From a gamma proteobacterium symbiont of Ctena orbiculata (GTDB lineage Bacteria; Pseudomonadota; Gammaproteobacteria; Chromatiales; Chromatiaceae), in assembly GCA_003058525.1 (NCBI GenBank), contig QBVD01000064.1:1-64000 (forward strand): a stretch of DNA of 64,000 bases, read 5' to 3'. Under the pieces are notes generated by a model. The model made no database searches, had not been told where the DNA came from, and worked only from the letters and a program-made list of their open reading frames with translations. Of this stretch, positions 6,149 through 50,700 are shown in pieces. The position numbers and the translations under genes were made by a program. Each line of letters starts with the position of its first letter. Position 1 is the first letter of the stretch.

Positions 6149-8239
6149 ATGCGACTCAGAGCTCTATCCTTAGCAATCGGCTCCCTGTTGGCAACATCCT
6201 GCCTGCATGCTGAAGAGCAGGTGGAAAAACTCGGCGAAATCTATGTTGAAGGTAAAGCCGAAACGGCGCCTGCTGTGACCAGGACACCGGTGGATGACGG
6301 TTCACAGGGGCTGCCGGCGGATGGCGGTGATTTTCTGCGTGATATCAATGGTGTTTCAGGTATTCGTATGGGGGGGCACGGCATCGATCCGGTGATTCGC
6401 GGTCAGAGCCAGAATCGACTCAACATCATCCTCGACGGCGCCTACATCCATGGCGGTTGTCCCAACCGCATGGATCCACCGACAGCCTATTCCGCCTTGG
6501 AGAGCTATGACAGTGTGACTGTGATCAAAGGTTCTCAGACGGTGATCTACGGCGGTGGCGGCAGTGGCGGTACGGTACTGTTCGAACGCCAGCCGCCCCG
6601 CTTCAAAGATGGCAAGTCTTATGTGGGCGAGGTGGATGCCGGTTACAAGGGCAATTCAAAGACCAAGGAGTTCTCTGCCGATATCGCCGCGGGTTCTGAA
6701 ACCGGCTATATACGGGGTGTGCTCGGTTATAAGGATGCCGACAACTATGAGGATGGTGACGGCAACGAGGTGCGTTCCGCCTACGAAAACCGAAGCGGAA
6801 ATCTGATATTGGGTTATATGCCCGATCAGGACAAACGCCTGGAACTCAATTTCGAGGCGACCCGGGAAGACGATACCCTGTTTGCTGGCGCGGGTATGGA
6901 TTCACCCAAGAGCGATGCCGACAACATCCGTTTCAAATACCAGCAGAGCGATGGCTTGGGACCCTTTGCCGGGATCAAGGCCGAGATCTATTCCAGCCAG
7001 GTGGACCACTTGATGGACAACTTCTCGCTGCGTGAATTGAGCGCACCCATGCTCATGGAGGTGCCGGCTACGTCGGACACCGCGGGTGGTCGCCTCTATG
7101 GCGATATCATGTTGGGCGGCAGTAACCTCACCATCGGTATCGACTACCAAAACAACGAGCGCGATGCGGACCGCTTCTCCGGCATGCCGATGATGGTGGA
7201 GCCGACCACTTTGCAATCGATAATGTGGCCAGGCGCAGAACTTGAACAGACAGGGTTGTTTGCAGAACTGGCCATGCCGGTGGGGGAAGAGAATCTGCTG
7301 AAGCTCGGTTTACGCTATGACCGGGTCGATGCCTCGATCTCACGGGGGAATGAAAAGCCCGATCTGGGCCCGAGTCCGACACCCAATGACCTCTATGCTG
7401 CCTACTATGCCGAGACATCGGACGAGCAGGCGGAAGACAATGTGGGTGGATTTATCCACTATGAACACATGCTGGGTGACGGTTCGCTTTTCGCCGGATT
7501 CAGCCGCAGTGTCAGAACTGCGGATGCGACAGAACGCTATCTTGCCAGTTTCTCACGCAACATGATGACCGGTATGGATTTCAGCTGGGTCGGTAATCCC
7601 GAGCTGGAAGCGGAAAAGCATCATCAGCTTGAAGTAGGCTACAAGTGGCAGAACGCAGGACTCGATACCGATATCACGCTCTATTACAACGATGTCTCTG
7701 ACTATATCCTGAGGGACAAGGCCAGAGGTCAGGACGGCATCCTGGTTGCGAATGGCACCGCAAATATCTATCGCAATGTGGATGCTGAGTTCTACGGTAT
7801 CGAATGGCAAGCAGGGTATCGTCTCTCCAATAGTCTGAAGACCAGTGCGAGCCTGGCCTATGTCAGAGCGGAAAACAGCACTGACGACAGACCCATTGCT
7901 CAAATAGCACCCCTCGAGGCGACCGTCAGTCTGGACTACGCCAGTGGCGATTGGGAGCTGGGGGGTAGTCTGCGGGCAAATGCGAAACAGACACGCGCCG
8001 ATCTCGAGAACGGCAGTGGACAGGACGTACAGGAGACCCCGGGCTGGGGTGTGATCGACCTGCATGGCAGATATGCGTTGTCGAACAACAGCTCAATCCG
8101 CTTTGGGGTCGACAACCTGTTGGACAAGCGTTTCGCCTATCACGTCAACAGGGCCAATGTGGATCCCTTCAATCCGGAAGCCATCCAGGTCAACGAGCCT
8201 GGCCGCGAAGTTTGGCTGAGAGGTTCGGTGAAGTTCTGA
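6149..8239 (+). CDS. TonB-dependent copper receptor (OprC/NosA type)
   Basis: 696-residue outer-membrane beta-barrel receptor. A signal peptide ends near LHA-EE at residue 22. The plug domain contains the block GGCPNRMDPPTAYSALESYDSVTVIKGSQTVIYG (residues about 111-144), which in the OprC/NosA family of copper receptors forms the Cys/Met copper site (family form CPNxMDPPTSY). Met-rich loops (SGMPMMVEP, MMTGMDF) fit copper handling. The C-terminus ends with an aromatic Phe (REVWLRGSVKF), as needed for barrel insertion. Known members import copper, often for nitrous oxide reductase or cytochrome oxidase maturation. The gene stands alone, preceded by an AT-rich spacer and followed by a strong hairpin at 8311-8346. 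Copper specificity is inferred from the family motif. Confidence 0.9.
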   Translation: MRLRALSLAIGSLLATSCLHAEEQVEKLGEIYVEGKAETAPAVTRTPVDDGSQGLPADGGDFLRDINGVSGIRMGGHGIDPVIRGQSQNRLNIILDGAYIHGGCPNRMDPPTAYSALESYDSVTVIKGSQTVIYGGGGSGGTVLFERQPPRFKDGKSYVGEVDAGYKGNSKTKEFSADIAAGSETGYIRGVLGYKDADNYEDGDGNEVRSAYENRSGNLILGYMPDQDKRLELNFEATREDDTLFAGAGMDSPKSDADNIRFKYQQSDGLGPFAGIKAEIYSSQVDHLMDNFSLRELSAPMLMEVPATSDTAGGRLYGDIMLGGSNLTIGIDYQNNERDADRFSGMPMMVEPTTLQSIMWPGAELEQTGLFAELAMPVGEENLLKLGLRYDRVDASISRGNEKPDLGPSPTPNDLYAAYYAETSDEQAEDNVGGFIHYEHMLGDGSLFAGFSRSVRTADATERYLASFSRNMMTGMDFSWVGNPELEAEKHHQLEVGYKWQNAGLDTDITLYYNDVSDYILRDKARGQDGILVANGTANIYRNVDAEFYGIEWQAGYRLSNSLKTSASLAYVRAENSTDDRPIAQIAPLEATVSLDYASGDWELGGSLRANAKQTRADLENGSGQDVQETPGWGVIDLHGRYALSNNSSIRFGVDNLLDKRFAYHVNRANVDPFNPEAIQVNEPGREVWLRGSVKF

Positions 8240-35727: not shown

Positions 35728-38034
35728 ATGAGCATCGATGTCAACGACGAAATCCTTCAGGATTTTCTGGTCGAGGCTGGAGAGATACTTGAGCTGCTTA
35801 GTGAGCAGTTAGTGGATCTGGAGCAGCAACCTGATGATTTCGATCTGCTGAATGCCGTTTTTAGAGGCTTTCACACCATTAAGGGTGGTGCCGGGTTTCT
35901 ATCAATAGATCCCTTGGTGGAGGTTTGCCACCGGGCTGAGGATGTTTTCAATATACTGCGCCAGGGGCAACGCAGTGTGGGTCCGGATTTAATGGACTCC
36001 GTGCTCGAAGTGCTTGATATTGTCAATGCCATGTTCGAGCAGGTGCGCGAAGGTGTCATGCCGGAACACGCGGACCGGGATCTGATTGAGCGACTCAACC
36101 GTTATGCCGTACCGGAAGGCGAAGAGGAAGAGGTTGAAGAGGAAGAGGTTGCGGAGTCAGTTGAAACAGTCACTCAGGACGAGCAAGCGCCAGTAGCCGA
36201 TGTAGAGGTGTCGGCGCAGCCTGAACCATCTGCGGTGAAAGAGCAATCCTCGTCCAATGAGATCAGTGATAACGAGTTCGAAACACTGCTGGATGCCATC
36301 CAGGAACCCGCTCCAACCGGCAAAGACGACAATATCACAGAGGATGAGTTTGAAGATCTGCTGGATGAATTGCACGGTAAGGGCAAATTCACCGGCAAGC
36401 CACCGGCACAAACCAAGACAGAAAAATCTGCGGCATCCGACGACATCTCGGAGGATGAGTTCGAGGCCCTGCTCGATGAGATACATGGAGAGGGCAAATT
36501 CAGCCCCGATAAGCTGAGCAAGGAGGAAGCGACCGCCAAGGATACGGTTAAACCGAAAGTCGCGGATAAACCACCTGCTGGCGACGACGAAATCTCCGAA
36601 GATGAATTTGAGGATCTACTGGACCAGATCCACGGTTCGGGGAAATTTGATCCGAACAAGATTAAGCCGGATGACGCGGCCAAGGATAAAAAAGCTAAAA
36701 AAGCGGGAAAGCCGGCGCAAAAGGCGGCCCCTAAGAGCACGGCCAAACCAGCGAAAAAGCCGGCGGCTAAGGCAAAAACCAAACCAGCCAAAAAAGCTGC
36801 TGCAGAAGCGAAACCGAAAGCAGCGCCTAAGCAACCCAAGGCTGCCGCCAGCAAGCCTGCAGCCGAAACCTCTGTCCGTGTGGATACCCAAAGGCTCGAC
36901 GATATCATGAATATGGTGGGTGAGCTGGTGCTGGTGCGTAACCGACTGGCGACACTGAAGGCCACCATGAACGATGAGGATGTGGCCAACGCGGTGGGTA
37001 ATCTGGATGTGGTGACTTCCGATCTGCAATTGGCAGTCATGAAGACACGGATGCAGCCGATTAAAAAGGTCTTCGGGCGATTTCCCCGGGTGGTGCGTGA
37101 TCTGGCGCGGAGTCTGAAAAAGGAGATCGATCTCGAAATGGTGGGTGAGGACACCGATCTTGATAAAAATCTTGTCGAGGCCTTGGCCGATCCCCTGGTC
37201 CATCTGGTACGCAATTCGGTAGATCATGGCATCGAGCTGCCGGATGAACGTGAGGAGAAAGGCAAACCGAGGCGGGGCAGGGTGGTACTGTCCGCTGCCC
37301 AGGAAGGTGATCACATTCTGCTTTCCATCGCCGATGACGGTAAAGGCATGGATCCGGAAGTGCTGCGCAAAAAGGCTGTAGAGAAAGGCATGATGGATAG
37401 CGAGGCGGCCGCCCGTCTTGACGACAAGGAGTGTTTCAATCTTATTTTTGCACCTGGATTTTCCACAAAAACCGAAATCTCCGACGTCTCGGGGCGTGGT
37501 GTCGGCATGGATGTGGTGAAGACCCGGATTGCCCAGATGAACGGTTCGGTTGAGATCGATTCCGAATGGGGCCAGGGCAGCATCATTATAATCAAACTGC
37601 CCCTGACGCTGGCAATACTGCCCACTTTGATGGTGGTTTTGGGACAGCAACCCTTCGCACTGCCCCTGGCCAGTGTGGTTGAAATATTCAATCTCAATCT
37701 GAAACGCACCAATGTGGTGGATGGCCAGCTGACTATCATGGTTCGCGAGCGCGCTCTGCCACTCTTCTATCTGCGTAACTGGCTGATTCCGGACAAACCG
37801 ATCAGTGATGAAGACAGGTCAAAAGGACATGTTGTGATCGTCAATGTAGGAAATATCCAGGTCGGTCTGGTAGTCGACCACCTGATCGGTCAGGAAGAGG
37901 TTGTGATCAAACCACTCGGCGCACTTCTGCAGGGCCTGGACGGTATGGCCGGCGCCACAATCACCGGTGACGGTAAAATAGCCCTGATCGTTGATGTGCC
38001 CGGTTTGATGCGCAAGTATGCCAAGAAGTATTAG
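35728..38034 (+). CDS. cheA: Chemotaxis histidine kinase CheA
   Basis: 768-residue kinase of the receptor array. P1 (Hpt) spans about residues 1-110 with phospho-His49 in FHTIKGGAGF. Next, four degenerate copies of an ISEDEFExLLDxIHG motif start near residues 178, 202, 239 and 288. A Lys/Ala/Pro-rich, histone-H1-like linker follows (about 308-386). P3 dimerisation (LDDIMNMVGELVLVRNRL), P4 ATPase (LVHLVRNSVDHGIE, DDGKGMD, GRGVGMDVV) and P5 CheW-like regulatory domain complete it. The stop codon TAG is formed at the border of a short repeat remnant (38033-38054). It lies between cheZ and cheB. Confidence 0.97.
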   Translation: MSIDVNDEILQDFLVEAGEILELLSEQLVDLEQQPDDFDLLNAVFRGFHTIKGGAGFLSIDPLVEVCHRAEDVFNILRQGQRSVGPDLMDSVLEVLDIVNAMFEQVREGVMPEHADRDLIERLNRYAVPEGEEEEVEEEEVAESVETVTQDEQAPVADVEVSAQPEPSAVKEQSSSNEISDNEFETLLDAIQEPAPTGKDDNITEDEFEDLLDELHGKGKFTGKPPAQTKTEKSAASDDISEDEFEALLDEIHGEGKFSPDKLSKEEATAKDTVKPKVADKPPAGDDEISEDEFEDLLDQIHGSGKFDPNKIKPDDAAKDKKAKKAGKPAQKAAPKSTAKPAKKPAAKAKTKPAKKAAAEAKPKAAPKQPKAAASKPAAETSVRVDTQRLDDIMNMVGELVLVRNRLATLKATMNDEDVANAVGNLDVVTSDLQLAVMKTRMQPIKKVFGRFPRVVRDLARSLKKEIDLEMVGEDTDLDKNLVEALADPLVHLVRNSVDHGIELPDEREEKGKPRRGRVVLSAAQEGDHILLSIADDGKGMDPEVLRKKAVEKGMMDSEAAARLDDKECFNLIFAPGFSTKTEISDVSGRGVGMDVVKTRIAQMNGSVEIDSEWGQGSIIIIKLPLTLAILPTLMVVLGQQPFALPLASVVEIFNLNLKRTNVVDGQLTIMVRERALPLFYLRNWLIPDKPISDEDRSKGHVVIVNVGNIQVGLVVDHLIGQEEVVIKPLGALLQGLDGMAGATITGDGKIALIVDVPGLMRKYAKKY

Positions 38035-45523: not shown

Positions 45524-45994
45524 ATGGCAATAGCAATTACACTCAGAGAGTATCTGCAAAATCACGGTGTCAGTTTCGACGTCATCGATCATCGGCGGAC
45601 CGACTCCACCCTGCATACCGCTGAAGCGGCCCATATACCCGGCGACAGAATGGCCAAATCGGTCTTGCTCGGAGATGACGAGAGCTACCTGCTTGCGGTT
45701 ATTCCCGCGACACATCGGCTGGAGCTGGAACAGTTGAAACAGCTGACCGGCCGTAAACTCAGCCTGATTTCCGAGGATGAACTGCAGCAGGCCTTCGCGG
45801 ATTGCGAAACCGGCGCGGTACCGCCGACAGGCATGCCCTATGGCATCGAGACCCTGGTTGACGCCAGCTTGCTGAAGCAGCCTGATCTCTACTTCGAGTC
45901 CGGCGACCACGGCAAACTGATCCACATCAGTGTCGACACATTCAGAGAAATAGAGTCCGACGCCATCGTCGCCGAATTCAGCAGACACCTTTAG
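45524..45994 (+). CDS. YbaK/EbsC-type aminoacyl-tRNA deacylase
   Basis: 156-residue protein with the YbaK/ProX fold. Members hydrolyse mischarged aminoacyl-tRNA in trans. Features are ITLREYLQNHGVSFDVIDHRRTDSTLHTAEAAHIPGDRMAKSVLLGDDESYLLAVIPATHRLELEQLKQLTGRKLSLISEDEL and the conserved GAVPPTGMPYGIETLVDASLLKQPDLYFESGDHGKLIHISV. The catalytic Lys of the family is likely that in MAKSVLL. It precedes the tRNA-Ser gene by about 50 bases. The amino acid specificity is not evident. Confidence 0.9.
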   Translation: MAIAITLREYLQNHGVSFDVIDHRRTDSTLHTAEAAHIPGDRMAKSVLLGDDESYLLAVIPATHRLELEQLKQLTGRKLSLISEDELQQAFADCETGAVPPTGMPYGIETLVDASLLKQPDLYFESGDHGKLIHISVDTFREIESDAIVAEFSRHL

Positions 45995-46044: not shown

Positions 46045-46135
46045 GGAGAGATGTCCGAGTGGCTGAAGGAGCACGCCTGGAAAGTGTGTATACGTTAATA
46101 GCGTATCGAGGGTTCGAATCCCTCTCTCTCCGCCA
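46045..46135 (+). tRNA. tRNA-Ser (anticodon GGA)
   Basis: 91-base class II tRNA with encoded CCA. The acceptor pairs GGAGAGA with TCTCTCC, the anticodon loop reads CTGGAAA (anticodon GGA), and an extra arm GTGTATACGTTAATAGCG lies between the anticodon stem and the T-arm AGGGTTCGAATCCCT, as in tRNA-Ser. It is followed at once by a long palindromic terminator that includes the last A of CCA. Confidence 0.97.
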
Positions 46136-46170
46136 AATAAAAGGGGGCCCTGTTGGGCCCCCTTTTATTT
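46135..46170. terminator. Perfect palindromic terminator after tRNA-Ser
   Basis: A 16-bp perfect stem (arms AAATAAAAGGGGGCCC and its complement) with a TGTT loop. It has A and T runs on the two sides, so it works in either direction. A copy of its right arm is repeated at 46321-46330. Confidence 0.92.
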
Positions 46171-46394
46171 GGCGGAGAGCGAGGATTTGATTCGAACCCT
46201 TCGTTCGACCAGGCGCGCAGCGCCGCAGGACGCCGAGCGTAGCGAAGGCGCCCCGAAGGGGTGAGCCGAAGGCGAATCAATCCCTCCTATCAGTTGGCAC
46301 CCAAGTTTAGGAGACCCTCAGCCCCCTTTTATTTGGCGGAGAGCGAGGATTTGATTCGAACCCTTCGTTCGACCAGGCGCGCAGCGCCGCAGGA
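46157..46394. repeat. tRNA-Ser-derived repeats with hairpin cassette
   Basis: Two direct copies of a perfect 74-bp block (46157-46230 and 46321-46394, period 164) begin in the terminator arm and run through a stretch that resembles the reverse complement of the tRNA-Ser 3' end (GGCGGAGAG ... GATTCGAACCC) into TTCGACC and a row of small hairpins. The first copy has GGCGC-GCA-GCGCC, a stem near 46234-46252, CCCC-GAA-GGGG and GCC-GAA-GGC, then GCGAATCAATCCCTCC, which resembles the tRNA T-arm end. The second copy breaks off after the first hairpin. I see no gene in it. Confidence 0.85.
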
Positions 46395-46460: not shown

Positions 46461-46537
46461 GCGCCCGTAGCTCAGCTGGATAGAGTACCTGGCTACGAAC
46501 TAGGGGGTCGGAGGTTCGAATCCTTCCGGGCGCGCCA
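46461..46537 (+). tRNA. tRNA-Arg (anticodon ACG)
   Basis: 77-base tRNA with encoded CCA. The acceptor pairs GCGCCCG with CGGGCGC, the D-arm is TAGCTCAGCTGGATAGAG, the anticodon loop CTACGAA gives ACG (Arg), and the T-arm is GGAGGTTCGAATCCTTC. The T-stem closes with one wobble pair. It is followed directly by a long terminator. Confidence 0.97.
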
Positions 46538-46577
46538 TATTAAAAAGGGGTCTGCTTCAGCAGGCCCCTTTTTAATA
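46538..46577. terminator. Long palindromic terminator after tRNA-Arg
   Basis: The outer arms TATTAAAAAGGGG and CCCCTTTTTAATA (13 bp, perfect) plus an inner CTGC/GCAG pairing give an 18-bp stem with one T-G wobble and a TTCA loop. The T run after the stem fits a Rho-independent terminator on the plus strand. Confidence 0.93.
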
Positions 46578-46592
46578 TGTTGTTCAGATAGC

Positions 46593-47057
46593 TTCGAACC
46601 TCCGACTTCAAAGAGCCGGTTCGACCAGCGCCGAAGGCGCGCAGAACGCCGCGTAGCGGCGGCCCCGCAGGGGTGAGGGCCACAGGCCCGAATAATCCTT
46701 CCGGGCGCGCCATTTTCTCAAGTATCACCTGTATTGCTAATCGCGCAAAAGTAGAATCGAGGGTATTCGAACCTCCGACTTCAAAGAGCTGGTTCGACAA
46801 GCGCCGTAGGCGCGCAGAACGCCGCGCAGCGGCGGCCCCGGAGGGGTGAGGGCCACAGGCCCGAATCATCCTTCCGGGCGCGCCATTTTCTCAAGTATCA
46901 CCTGTATTGCTAATCGCGCAAAAGTAGAATCGAGGGTATTCGAACCTCCGACTTCAAAGAGCCGGTTCGACCAGCGCCGAAGGCGCGCAGAACGCCGCAC
47001 AGCGGCGGCCCCGCAGGGGTGAGGGCACAGGCCCGAATCATCCTTCCGGGCGCACCA
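46593..47057. repeat. 173-bp tandem units built from tRNA-Arg 3' pieces
   Basis: Three head-to-tail copies start at 46593, 46766 and 46939 (period exactly 173; the third is cut off after about 119 bases). Each unit opens with TTCGAACCTCCGAC (reverse complement of the tRNA T-arm), continues through a cassette of four short hairpins with three-base loops (GCGCC/GGCGC, CGCCGC/GCGGCG, CCCC/GGGG, GGGCC/GGCCC), and then resumes the direct tRNA 3' end (CGAATC...CCTTCCGGGCGCGCCA) before a spacer ending CTAATCGCGC. The cassette therefore interrupts a T-loop copy. Loops differ between copies while the stems hold. Confidence 0.9.
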
Positions 47058-47130
47058 TATCGATCAAGGGGTTAGCGCTTATTTAATGGCTAGCACTTTT
47101 TCATTTCCCGGCAGATTTCCGATAAATCCT

Positions 47131-47335: not shown

Positions 47336-49873
47336 TCAAAAAGCACTCGATCTACGTGAAAGGGGACTTAGCAGAGAATCAATGTCCTCTATCGGCAACG
47401 GCCGGTTAATCCAGTAGCCCTGGAAGCGTTTGCATCCGCAGCTTTTCAGTAGCTCGAATTGCTGTTCGTTGCTGACACCTTCTGCAACGACCTCAAGACC
47501 GAGATTTCTACCCATCTCGATGATGGTCCTCACCATGGTGAGATCACCTTCGTCAACCAGGATGTCCTGCACGAACGACCTGTCGATTTTTAATTGTGAG
47601 ACATTGAAGCGTTTCAGATAACTCAATGAGGAATAACCGGTGCCAAAATCGTCAAGCGAGGTCTTGATGCCCATGCGATTGAGTTTTTCTATCTTTTCAT
47701 TGGTGCTGGAAAAATTGATGATCAGGGTGCTCTCGGTCAATTCCAGGTAGAGTTGATTGCAATCAATGCCGTACCTGTCGATGCTCGATGCCAGGTTACT
47801 GATGAAATCGGTTTTTTTGAACTGTAGCGCACTGATATTGACAGACAGGGTTAGCGAACGGGTTGAGCTTTCCTGCTGCCAGCGCTGCAATTGGTGGATG
47901 CCCTCATTGATCACCCATTCGCCTATCGGGACGATCATACCGTTGAGCTCGATCAGGGGGAAAAGCTGGTCGGGGCCGATGATGCCTTTGTCCGGATGGT
48001 GCCATCTGAGCAATGCTTCAGCGCCGACCACATTGCGTTCGTGATCCACAATCAATTGGTAAAACAGGCGGAACTGATTCTGTGCCAGGGCATAGGCCAG
48101 TTCACGCTCAAGTTGGAGTCTACTTTTGAGTTCCTGCTGCATCTCCGGATTAAAAAAATGAACGCTGTTGCGGCCTGATTTCTTGGCTTCGTACATTGCG
48201 GTGTCAGCACGCTTGAGAATGTCTTCCGCGCGCGGGTATTCATCCCTGAACAAACAAACACCAATGCTGCAGGTGCTTGAGTAGCTGATGTTCTTAAGGT
48301 TCGACTCGGCGGACACCGAAACCAGTATTTTTTCGCAAATGATCAAGACACTGCTGTTGATTTCAGCTGAATCTTTCCCCATGTTTTCCAGTATGACCAC
48401 GAATTCATCGCCACCGAGACGCGCCACTAAATCGACTTCCCGAAGGCAGGAAGTGATACGCGATGCGACTTCGATAAGCAGCAGGTCCCCGATATCATGC
48501 CCGTAACTGTCGTTGAGATTTTTGAAATGATCCAGATCGATAAACAGGAGGGCGGAATAGGTCAGTTGACGACGGCTATGGAGTATGGCCTGTTTCAAGT
48601 GGCTCATGAACAGGCGGCGATTGGGTAGACGGGTCAGTGGGTCATAAAAGGCCAGTTCTTCCACTTCCTTTTCGATCTGTTTACGATGCGTGATGTCGTC
48701 CTTTACCGCGATGTAGTTAGTGATCTGTCCCTGCGCATCCAGCACCGGAGTAATGGTCATGTACACATCGAACAGGCTGCCGTCTTTCTTGCGGTTGATT
48801 AGGTCACCCTGCCAGACCTGTCCTGAACTGATGGATTGCCACATATTCTCGTAAAAATCATTTTCCTGCCTGCCGGAAAAAATCAGTTGCTTCGGGTTAT
48901 GCCCCAGTACTTCCTCCATGTTGTAGCCTGACATCTTGAGAAACGCCTGGTTGGCCCATTCAATCTCACCATCCGGATCGGTGATGAAGATGGCGTTGGC
49001 GGTGGCTTCCAGCGCAAGGTTCTGTTTGAGCAGTTTTTGTTCGATATGTTTGCGTTCGGTTACATCGACATGGGTGCCCACTAACCGTTTAGGCGACAGG
49101 GGGCGGCTGTTATCATCACAGGCGAGCGATGCCCTGGATAATATATTCACCCAGTGTCCGGCCTTATGCTGCATACGGAATTCCACTTCAAACTTGTCAA
49201 TGTAACCGTCGAGATATCGCTGGACCTGTTTCAATGTGTCGCCTCTGTCATCGGGATGTACCAGTTGCTCCCACACCGTCAGGTCGTTTTCCTGCAGTTC
49301 ATCGTCCCGATAGCCCAACATGCTTTTCCAGCGGGGGGAATAATAGACCTCGTCGGTTTCAAGATTCCAGTCCCAGAAGCCGTCGTTGGCCCCCTGTAGT
49401 GCAAAGAACAGGCGTTCTCTATTCAGATTCAGTTCACGCAACATATCTTTATGTTCGGTGACATCGATGATGGTTCCGACAATGCCTGTGACATCACTAA
49501 TTTCAAGTTGCGGCGTTAGGGTCATTTCGACCGGGGTGCGTATATCGTTTTCTCCTATCAACTCAGACTCAAATGAAAAAATCTGCCCACTGCTTATAAG
49601 CAGCTGATGCACAATGGCATCGAATTCAGCGCGATCCGCTTCAGGTAGGAAATGAGACAATGGCAGATGAACAGCCGTATCGATGGAGGTGCCGGTGATG
49701 TTTTCCCAGGCCAGATTCAGGAAAGTCAACCGACCGTCCCGATCCAATTGGAAGACGATTTGTTTGAGATTACTGACCAGTTCCCTGTAGCGGCGTTCAG
49801 AAGTACGCAAACGTTCAAGCAGTTTCAGGTTCAGTTGGGCCTGTAACTCGTCGCTTGTGATCTGCTTTTTCAC
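47336..49873 (-). CDS. PAS-PAS-PAS-GGDEF-EAL c-di-GMP protein
   Basis: 845-residue soluble c-di-GMP enzyme. Three PAS modules (about residues 22-145, 150-270 and 285-405; VFQLDRDGRLTFLNLAWENITG, GANDGFWDWNLETDEVYYSPRWKSMLGY, IFITDPDGEIEWANQAFLKMSGYN) precede a GGDEF domain (about 415-575, intact ARLGGDEFVVIL) and an EAL domain (about 590-835, EALLRWHHPDKG and LDDFGTGYSSLSYL). Both catalytic signatures are intact. There is no membrane span. It stands alone; the integrase remnant and tRNA repeats lie downstream. The signals it senses are unknown. Confidence 0.93.
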   Translation of the reverse strand: MKKQITSDELQAQLNLKLLERLRTSERRYRELVSNLKQIVFQLDRDGRLTFLNLAWENITGTSIDTAVHLPLSHFLPEADRAEFDAIVHQLLISSGQIFSFESELIGENDIRTPVEMTLTPQLEISDVTGIVGTIIDVTEHKDMLRELNLNRERLFFALQGANDGFWDWNLETDEVYYSPRWKSMLGYRDDELQENDLTVWEQLVHPDDRGDTLKQVQRYLDGYIDKFEVEFRMQHKAGHWVNILSRASLACDDNSRPLSPKRLVGTHVDVTERKHIEQKLLKQNLALEATANAIFITDPDGEIEWANQAFLKMSGYNMEEVLGHNPKQLIFSGRQENDFYENMWQSISSGQVWQGDLINRKKDGSLFDVYMTITPVLDAQGQITNYIAVKDDITHRKQIEKEVEELAFYDPLTRLPNRRLFMSHLKQAILHSRRQLTYSALLFIDLDHFKNLNDSYGHDIGDLLLIEVASRITSCLREVDLVARLGGDEFVVILENMGKDSAEINSSVLIICEKILVSVSAESNLKNISYSSTCSIGVCLFRDEYPRAEDILKRADTAMYEAKKSGRNSVHFFNPEMQQELKSRLQLERELAYALAQNQFRLFYQLIVDHERNVVGAEALLRWHHPDKGIIGPDQLFPLIELNGMIVPIGEWVINEGIHQLQRWQQESSTRSLTLSVNISALQFKKTDFISNLASSIDRYGIDCNQLYLELTESTLIINFSSTNEKIEKLNRMGIKTSLDDFGTGYSSLSYLKRFNVSQLKIDRSFVQDILVDEGDLTMVRTIIEMGRNLGLEVVAEGVSNEQQFELLKSCGCKRFQGYWINRPLPIEDIDSLLSPLSRRSSAF

Positions 49874-50483: not shown

Positions 50484-50533
50484 GGTCCCATCGAATTGGA
50501 AAAGTTATTGAATATGACCGATTTTAGCACAGA

Positions 50534-50700
50534 TTCGACCAGCGCCGCAGGCGCGCAGAACGCCGCGTAGCGGCGGCTCCGTAGGGGTGAGGGCCATAGG
50601 CCCGAATCATCCTTGCGAGCGCGCCATCTTCTCAAGTATCGTCTGCTGTGCTAATTACGCCTGGAGCGGCATCGAGGTTATTCGAACCCCTGACTCGGAA
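50534..50700. repeat. Dispersed copy of the tRNA-Arg-linked hairpin repeat
   Basis: Diverged copy of the 173-bp unit, placed far from any tRNA gene. It has TTCGACC, hairpins GCGCC-GCA-GGCGC, CGCCGC-GTA-GCGGCG, CTCC-GTA-GGGG (kept by a T-G pair) and GGGCC-ATA-GGCCC, then CGAATCATCC, TTCTCAAGTATC and CTAAT, and ends in TTCGAACCCCTGAC. The shared spacer shows it is the same repeat family. Stems are preserved while loops and spacer have drifted. Confidence 0.85.

Follow-up and report, generated by a model that had tools for sequence, protein, structure and literature searches.

A gene for tRNA-Arg(ACG) in a gammaproteobacterial symbiont of Ctena orbiculata is followed by tandem repeats in which pieces of the tRNA enclose a cassette of short hairpins, raising the question of what such an array is and how it is maintained. 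It lies within a window, the whole stretch of DNA that was analyzed, of 64,000 nucleotides. On the basis of its sequence, the array is assigned to the tRNA-linked repeats (TLRs), a known family; an earlier note on this DNA had seen no named family with such a layout, and TLR/RtT is that family. The reading favored here, with a probability of about 0.78, is that of a TLR array that expands by unequal recombination and would yield, by read-through, a structured RNA whose end resembles a tRNA.

Layout of the array and its neighborhood

The tRNA-Arg(ACG) gene (46461–46537, forward strand; ARAGORN, and 62 bits with the Rfam tRNA model) is the donor of the copied 3′ end. The gap between the gene and the array holds a palindrome with terminator-like arms (46536–46579, forward strand; 21-nt arms, a 2-nt loop, and a T-rich end), which was located by an inverted-repeat search and at which a consensus terminator scan raised no flag. 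TRF delimits the tandem array at 46593–47058 (forward strand) with a period of 173, 2.7 copies, 95% matches, and zero indels. This agrees with the 173-base repeats of the earlier note, with the correction that the third unit lacks one C in its hairpin HP-D.

The units share one order of parts: 14–15 nt of the T-arm in antisense, GGTTCGA, four short hairpins, and CGAAT(A/C) with a copy of the tRNA 3′ end. The hairpins are designated HP-A, HP-B, the C(GNA)G hairpin, and HP-D, the last of which contains a tandem G·A. As had been described, the four-hairpin cassette interrupts a T-loop, sitting between the GGTTCGA and CGAAT(A/C)ATCC of the tRNA T-arm. A second correction concerns the stretch before GGTTCGA, which is the T-arm in antisense and not the 5′ half of a tRNA. 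The loop changes between copies are as previously given; one hairpin reads GCA, GGA, and GCA in units 1 to 3, and the HP-D loop is constantly ACA.

Two models were used to score these units: the Rfam model RF00391 (RtT) and a model trained on 56 cassettes, among them two from the window and two E. coli tyr units (R2). Unit 1 (46593–46712, forward strand) comprises the antisense T-arm at 46593–46606, GGTTCGA at 46618–46624, the cassette at 46618–46698, and the tRNA 3′-end copy up to 46712, and it scores 37.3 bits with RtT and 61.6 bits with R2. Unit 2 (46765–46885, forward strand; cassette 46791–46871) scores 33.9 and 60 bits, respectively, and unit 3 (46938–47057, forward strand; cassette 46964–47043), which is outside the R2 training set, scores 31.9 and 53 bits. 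The last 17 nt of tRNA-Arg are reproduced in full (17/17) in units 1 and 2 and with one mismatch in unit 3.

The earlier note overlooked related units on both sides of these three. Upstream, the tRNA-Ser(GGA) gene (46045–46135, forward strand; ARAGORN) has a palindrome with 30-nt arms that spans its 3′ end and a terminator-like stem (46121–46184, forward strand; inverted-repeat search). It is followed by a TLR cassette with a truncated 3′ copy (46202–46283, forward strand; R2, 30.3 bits) and by the start of a truncated second Ser unit (46321–46394, forward strand), a direct repeat whose 74 nt are identical to 46157–46230. Downstream, an orphan Arg-type unit (50532–50695, forward strand; cassette 50532–50612), together with a spacer and the antisense T-arm of a next unit, is recognized by R2 (48 bits) and by BLAST similarity to the array copies. 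It lies behind a PAS-GGDEF-EAL gene (47336–49873, reverse strand; Pfam) and an isochorismatase-family gene; the former separates it from the array and belongs to the surroundings, outside the element. In G015 and G020, two sister genomes, the array and the right-hand flank of the orphan are ~1.4 kb apart as judged from coordinates, as opposed to 3.7 kb here; an ancestral array broken apart by an insertion would explain this difference. When the 64-kb window is searched with R2 with filters off, the five window units, two of which are members of the training set, score 30–62 bits, and the runner-up scores 13.5 bits, so the units exceed what chance would give.

A gene for an aminoacyl-tRNA editing domain is found at 45524–45994, just 5′ of the tRNA-Ser/tRNA-Arg pair. 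Two short tandem repeats with 36-bp and 15-bp periods (36715–36794 and 36121–36151, respectively) occur in or near a long open frame elsewhere in the window.

The search of the genome and its relatives with a cassette model that the earlier note had proposed recovers further copies. In the symbiont's own genome, units accompany, or once accompanied, seven tRNA genes (Arg, Tyr, Gln, and four Ser). A scan of all 43 tRNA genes, combined with reading, places units behind Arg(ACG), Tyr, Gln(CTG), Ser(GGA), Ser(GCT), and Ser(CGA). The seventh array lies ~10 kb from tRNA-Ser(TGA), behind a copy of the 3′ half of that tRNA and a terminator-like palindrome. Four RtT copies above the Rfam cut-off are present in this genome, behind tRNA-Gln(CTG) and tRNA-Tyr.

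Relation to TLRs, RtT, and the local tRNA

TLRs are reportedly the subject of older papers by Egan and Landy (1978), Bosl and Kersten (1991, 1994), and Rudd (1999). In a more recent account, they are said to have been first noticed in 1978, to number 22 at ten loci in E. coli K-12, and to be defined by 3′-terminal 18–19 bp identical to the upstream tRNA or rRNA; the same account states that they have no known function and that an early claim of a role in the stringent response has since been withdrawn (PMC8144298). The window array starts directly behind the tRNA gene on the same strand, carries the 3′ identity described above, which was also followed by reading over 18–19 nt, and with 2.7 copies falls within the one to five per locus typical of TLRs. 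The structured core common to the E. coli TLRs is recognized in it by R2 through unit 3.

R2 recovers the rrnB TLR (51.4 bits), five lys-operon TLRs, and three argQZYV TLRs of E. coli K-12, none of which was in its training set, and gives zero matches in the argX-hisR-leuT-proM stretch of E. coli. Because R2 thereby joins window unit 3 to untrained E. coli TLRs, the array is filed as a TLR. All three window units also match RtT, the Rfam counterpart of E. coli rttR, over all 130 model positions, with E values of 1e-5 to 3e-4, yet they fall short of the gathering cut-off of 45 bits, and the array is therefore kept out of curated RtT. The RtT model scores the E. coli arg TLRs at 29–31 bits, likewise below the cut-off, and does not match the rrnB TLR; R2 finds all of them.

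Like the window array, the E. coli TLRs (argQZYV, lys operon, tyrT-tyrV, and rrnB) are downstream of the tRNA, on the same strand, and in tandem, and they end in the 3′ end of the upstream tRNA. Their hairpin cassettes are alike by R2, and argQZYV encodes the same tRNA-Arg(ACG). The flanks differ: the window units have antisense T-arm and GGTTCGA ahead of the cassette, whereas the E. coli argQZYV units do not have GGTTCGA in that place. BIME/REP elements are palindromic intergenic repeats, as are the window units, but the latter are tied to tRNA 3′ ends. One paper connects rtT-like attenuator candidates of Enterobacteria with BIMEs.

The tie to the local tRNA extends well beyond this locus. 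Among 181 placed RtT matches, 164 are on the same strand and downstream of a tRNA, within 700 nt, and 127 of these have at most one mismatch to the last 17 nt of that tRNA. When the local tRNA is compared with the best other isotype in the 164 matches, it is the better match in 143, an equal match in 3, and the poorer match in 18, many of the failures being copies truncated after the T-stem strand. Units picked by their similarity to the local tRNA were excluded from this comparison and RtT matches were used instead, with the caveat that the RtT model has tyrT-like arms and its matches are biased toward such ends. In 97 of 161 units, the antisense segment is a better fit to its own tRNA than to 95% of foreign isotypes. 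A comparison restricted to the outer stem (13 nt) gives a mean of 8.5 for the own tRNA and 7.5 for foreign tRNAs and is clear in only 55 of 198 units, so the outer stem is not universal. A primer-binding site and an attC site were considered for the antisense arm and set aside.

The 245 distinct R2 matches are distributed as 208 behind a tRNA, 3 behind tmRNA, 7 behind a repeated end, 12 inside a tRNA, and 15 unplaced. The tmRNA-linked units (L118, L127, and L259) are directly behind tmRNA genes. The seven repeated ends were scored by script as tRNA 3′ fragments, and three of them (L138) are tandem repeats and not clear fragments.

Compensatory change in the cassette and descent by tRNA locus

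The cassette stems are kept by compensatory change. In an alignment of 56 rows, the number of cells changed on both sides of a pair is 286 for the four-hairpin structure, compared with 93.8 ± 7.6 after shuffling and 42–67 after sliding. The structure was drawn by eye on the alignment, which favors it in measures of paired cells, and the shuffles and slides serve as the control. This bears out the earlier view of a structured element as opposed to random decay. RNAalifold on the MAFFT alignment had given only 8 pairs and was replaced by the eye-drawn structure. Single-sequence folding of the units gives z values of −2.5, −4.2, and −3.3 and fails to recover the complete set of four hairpins, since the 3′ copy engages in other pairing.

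The two columns of the tandem G·A in HP-D are non-standard in 55 and 54 of 56 cells, and the pair flanking them covaries (C-G in 33, U-A in 19). A tandem G·A in RtT has been noted previously, according to two papers (PMC7657543; PMC8250186). The loop of the central hairpin (P5) is GNA in 120 of the 124 units in which P5 was found; six units have no P5 match. GNA triloops dominate, and the tetraloops comprise GNRA in 46 of 102 and UUCG in 0 of 102. Over 4255 stem cells, G·U (95) exceeds A·C (43), from which it follows that the sense strand is the folded one. G·U makes up 2.6% of the paired cells of the cassette as opposed to 5.5% in tRNA stems (ARAGORN), a low share for a constraint on RNA only. 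In DNA, both C(GNA)G loops and PyGAPu tandem mismatches have high stability, and the constraint may act on DNA in addition to RNA.

The elements are widespread. RtT matches occur in 27 of 56 relatives (own genome included), in 65 of 370 sampled genomes of the class, and in 27 of 199 genomes of a phylum sample; R2 matches occur in 40 of 115 genomes of the class, and 4680 of 5426 E. coli genomes match a two-unit query. In phage sequences, two window units found no match in a distant-mode search. As judged by best matches, units are shown to be inherited by tRNA locus within the genus: for 23 of 26 comparable units, the best cassette match in another genome is of the same isotype. The copy number varies between the window genome and the same-species genome G583 (three vs. 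two units at Arg, one vs. two at Ser). In G015 (L221:2504–3098), a palindromic, MITE-like insert in the spacer of the Arg unit has been duplicated along with the unit, giving a period of 296. These locus-wise matches, the difference in copy number, and the joint duplication in G015 fit vertical descent combined with unequal recombination. The 173-bp period can be put down to plain tandem expansion of a unit that has tRNA 3′-end copies at its borders, with no need for fresh targeting.

The window comes from an assembly of 112 contigs, and the repeats could in principle be an artefact of assembly or the chance decay of a tRNA duplication. The earlier note had asked whether the array would collapse to one unit. 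A second genome of the species, independent and assembled as one contig, has two Arg units with a period of 174, which refutes an assembly artefact, and neither an artefact nor chance decay accounts for arrays at seven tRNA loci or for the covariation. This explanation is accordingly given almost no weight.

Possible cassette mobility, integration, and expression

The main rival to the TLR reading, and one that could hold in addition to it, is that the cassette is a small mobile DNA module that enters tRNA loops at GA^A and rarely elsewhere, the window array being an old insertion that was later amplified. It draws on cassettes found within tRNA copies. In 8 of the 245 distinct R2 matches, from 6 genomes, the cassette interrupts the T-loop of a tRNA copy that is otherwise complete. 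These copies, of the isotypes Gln, Ser, and Arg(CCT), are without CCA, and each has an intact tRNA for the same amino acid downstream. The count of eight derives from the 12 matches classed as inside a tRNA minus four at L149, where the model match begins in the T-loop of a real tRNA. The control for the excision test is loose, in that 27 of 700 shifted excisions were also called tRNA and those inspected resemble real neighboring tRNAs; the T-loop cases were accepted by reading each one. The cassette also occupies the D-loop of tRNA-Ser copies upstream of an intact tRNA-Ser at 5 loci in 4 genomes (L270, L271, L180, L092, and L239). Both loops are filled at L271, and L092 has a T-loop cassette as well. 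The T-loop and D-loop insertion sites both read GA^A (TTCGA^ATCC and GCTGA^AGGC, respectively). Deletion between two GGTTCGA repeats could also account for the T-loop copies, but the D-loop copies could not arise in this way.

Movement of such a cassette is best supported by a single, old case on the symbiont's own contig C107 (L213:1013–1831; cassette ~6839–6922), where a divergent cassette sits, antisense and in frame, within an IS91-like gene (Pfam Y2_Tnp). A 68-bp insert and a 4-bp duplication are missing from the equivalent place in G583 (97% identical flanks), from contig C72 of the symbiont itself, and from G002, G008, G010, and G011, so that filled and empty alleles with a target-site duplication mark this divergent copy as a real insertion; the window array itself has no such pair of alleles. 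With R2, it scores a weak 27 bits (E 0.15), and it was accepted on its layout and its filled and empty alleles. Related filled alleles recur in G007, G008, and partly G016, which makes the insertion old and counts against the mobile reading. It is also the one match among 15 in the symbiont's genome that is outside the tRNA-linked arrays and their remnant. Cassettes with no adjacent same-strand tRNA are found at L274:1318–1406 (reverse strand) and L295, and such free copies, as well as the stability of C(GNA)G loops in DNA, would be in keeping with a mobile module. Against it stand the vertical descent of cassettes by tRNA locus in 23 of the 26 units and the fact that no mobilizing enzyme has been identified. 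The mobile T-loop-targeting element of the earlier note thus finds partial support in the T-loop, D-loop, and C107 copies and has the pattern of descent against it; as an account of the window array, a mobile module is considered rather unlikely. A broader proposal, that the TLR core is a mobile hairpin of ~70–80 nt specific for tRNA loops and that tandem TLRs are the amplified, domesticated remains of its insertions, is tentative, at distinctly less than even odds. If true, the cassette, a self-contained unit that also occurs behind tRNA and tmRNA genes, entered the T- and D-loops of tRNA copies beside functional tRNA genes and, at least once, a protein gene.

Integrative elements at the locus raise another rival reading. 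In G583, tRNA-Arg and the array are separated by an element of ~24 kb (L231, L232; G583:C1:76000–101900) that the window genome lacks; it encodes a serine recombinase next to the tRNA, a relaxase close to the opposite end, and a conjugative coupling protein. On its right, the element adjoins a TLR-type CCA and spacer, and the right junction in G009 is similar. On this genomic context, the array is part of a used integration locus, and its role as an attachment site is putative. The array might then be a spare attachment site, with extra tRNA 3′ ends that let integrative elements land while sparing the tRNA gene. The left end of the G583 element, however, is on the real tRNA and not on a TLR copy. 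Further evidence against this role comes from the tRNA-Ser(TGA) locus (own contig C23:17766–28100; L225, L208), where the intact gene is followed by a putative integrase frame, identified by reading, and the distant array of 2.3 units is preceded by the 3′-half copy; for these two reasons, an island of ~10 kb probably displaced the array. This island recombined in the tRNA itself, merely displacing the array, and several other displaced arrays are likewise behind a tRNA 3′ fragment. A spare attachment site is thus an improbable explanation.

Under the preferred TLR reading, unit-length direct repeats would grow and shrink through unequal recombination, and conversion or selection would prevent the tRNA-derived arms from diverging from the local tRNA. 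Expression of the array would require read-through, since a terminator-like palindrome separates it from the tRNA. By extension from work on other TLRs in E. coli, read-through of the tRNA terminator would allow the unit to be transcribed as a structured RNA, and tRNA 3′-processing enzymes would then mature its tRNA-like end to release a small RNA. The E. coli rrnA, rrnB, and rrnD TLRs are transcribed via read-through of the first terminator and bind Hfq and CsrA, according to PMC8144298, and RtT RNAs of A. pleuropneumoniae are visible on Northern blots (PMC4986893). Against this reading, many units have a truncated 3′ copy, so the tRNA-like end is dispensable.

In the titles and abstract beginnings searched, mostly of papers outside subscription, cassettes in the T- or D-loops of bacterial tRNA copies are not described. 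Within this literature, D- and T-loop cassettes in complete tRNA copies, tmRNA-linked units, and the insertion in an IS91-like gene look new. No function has been accepted for the TLRs of E. coli, known since 1978; the family is now found far beyond Enterobacteria, with units behind tmRNA and many tRNAs. The cassettes in the T- and D-loops of complete tRNA copies make the origin and mobility of the family directly testable.
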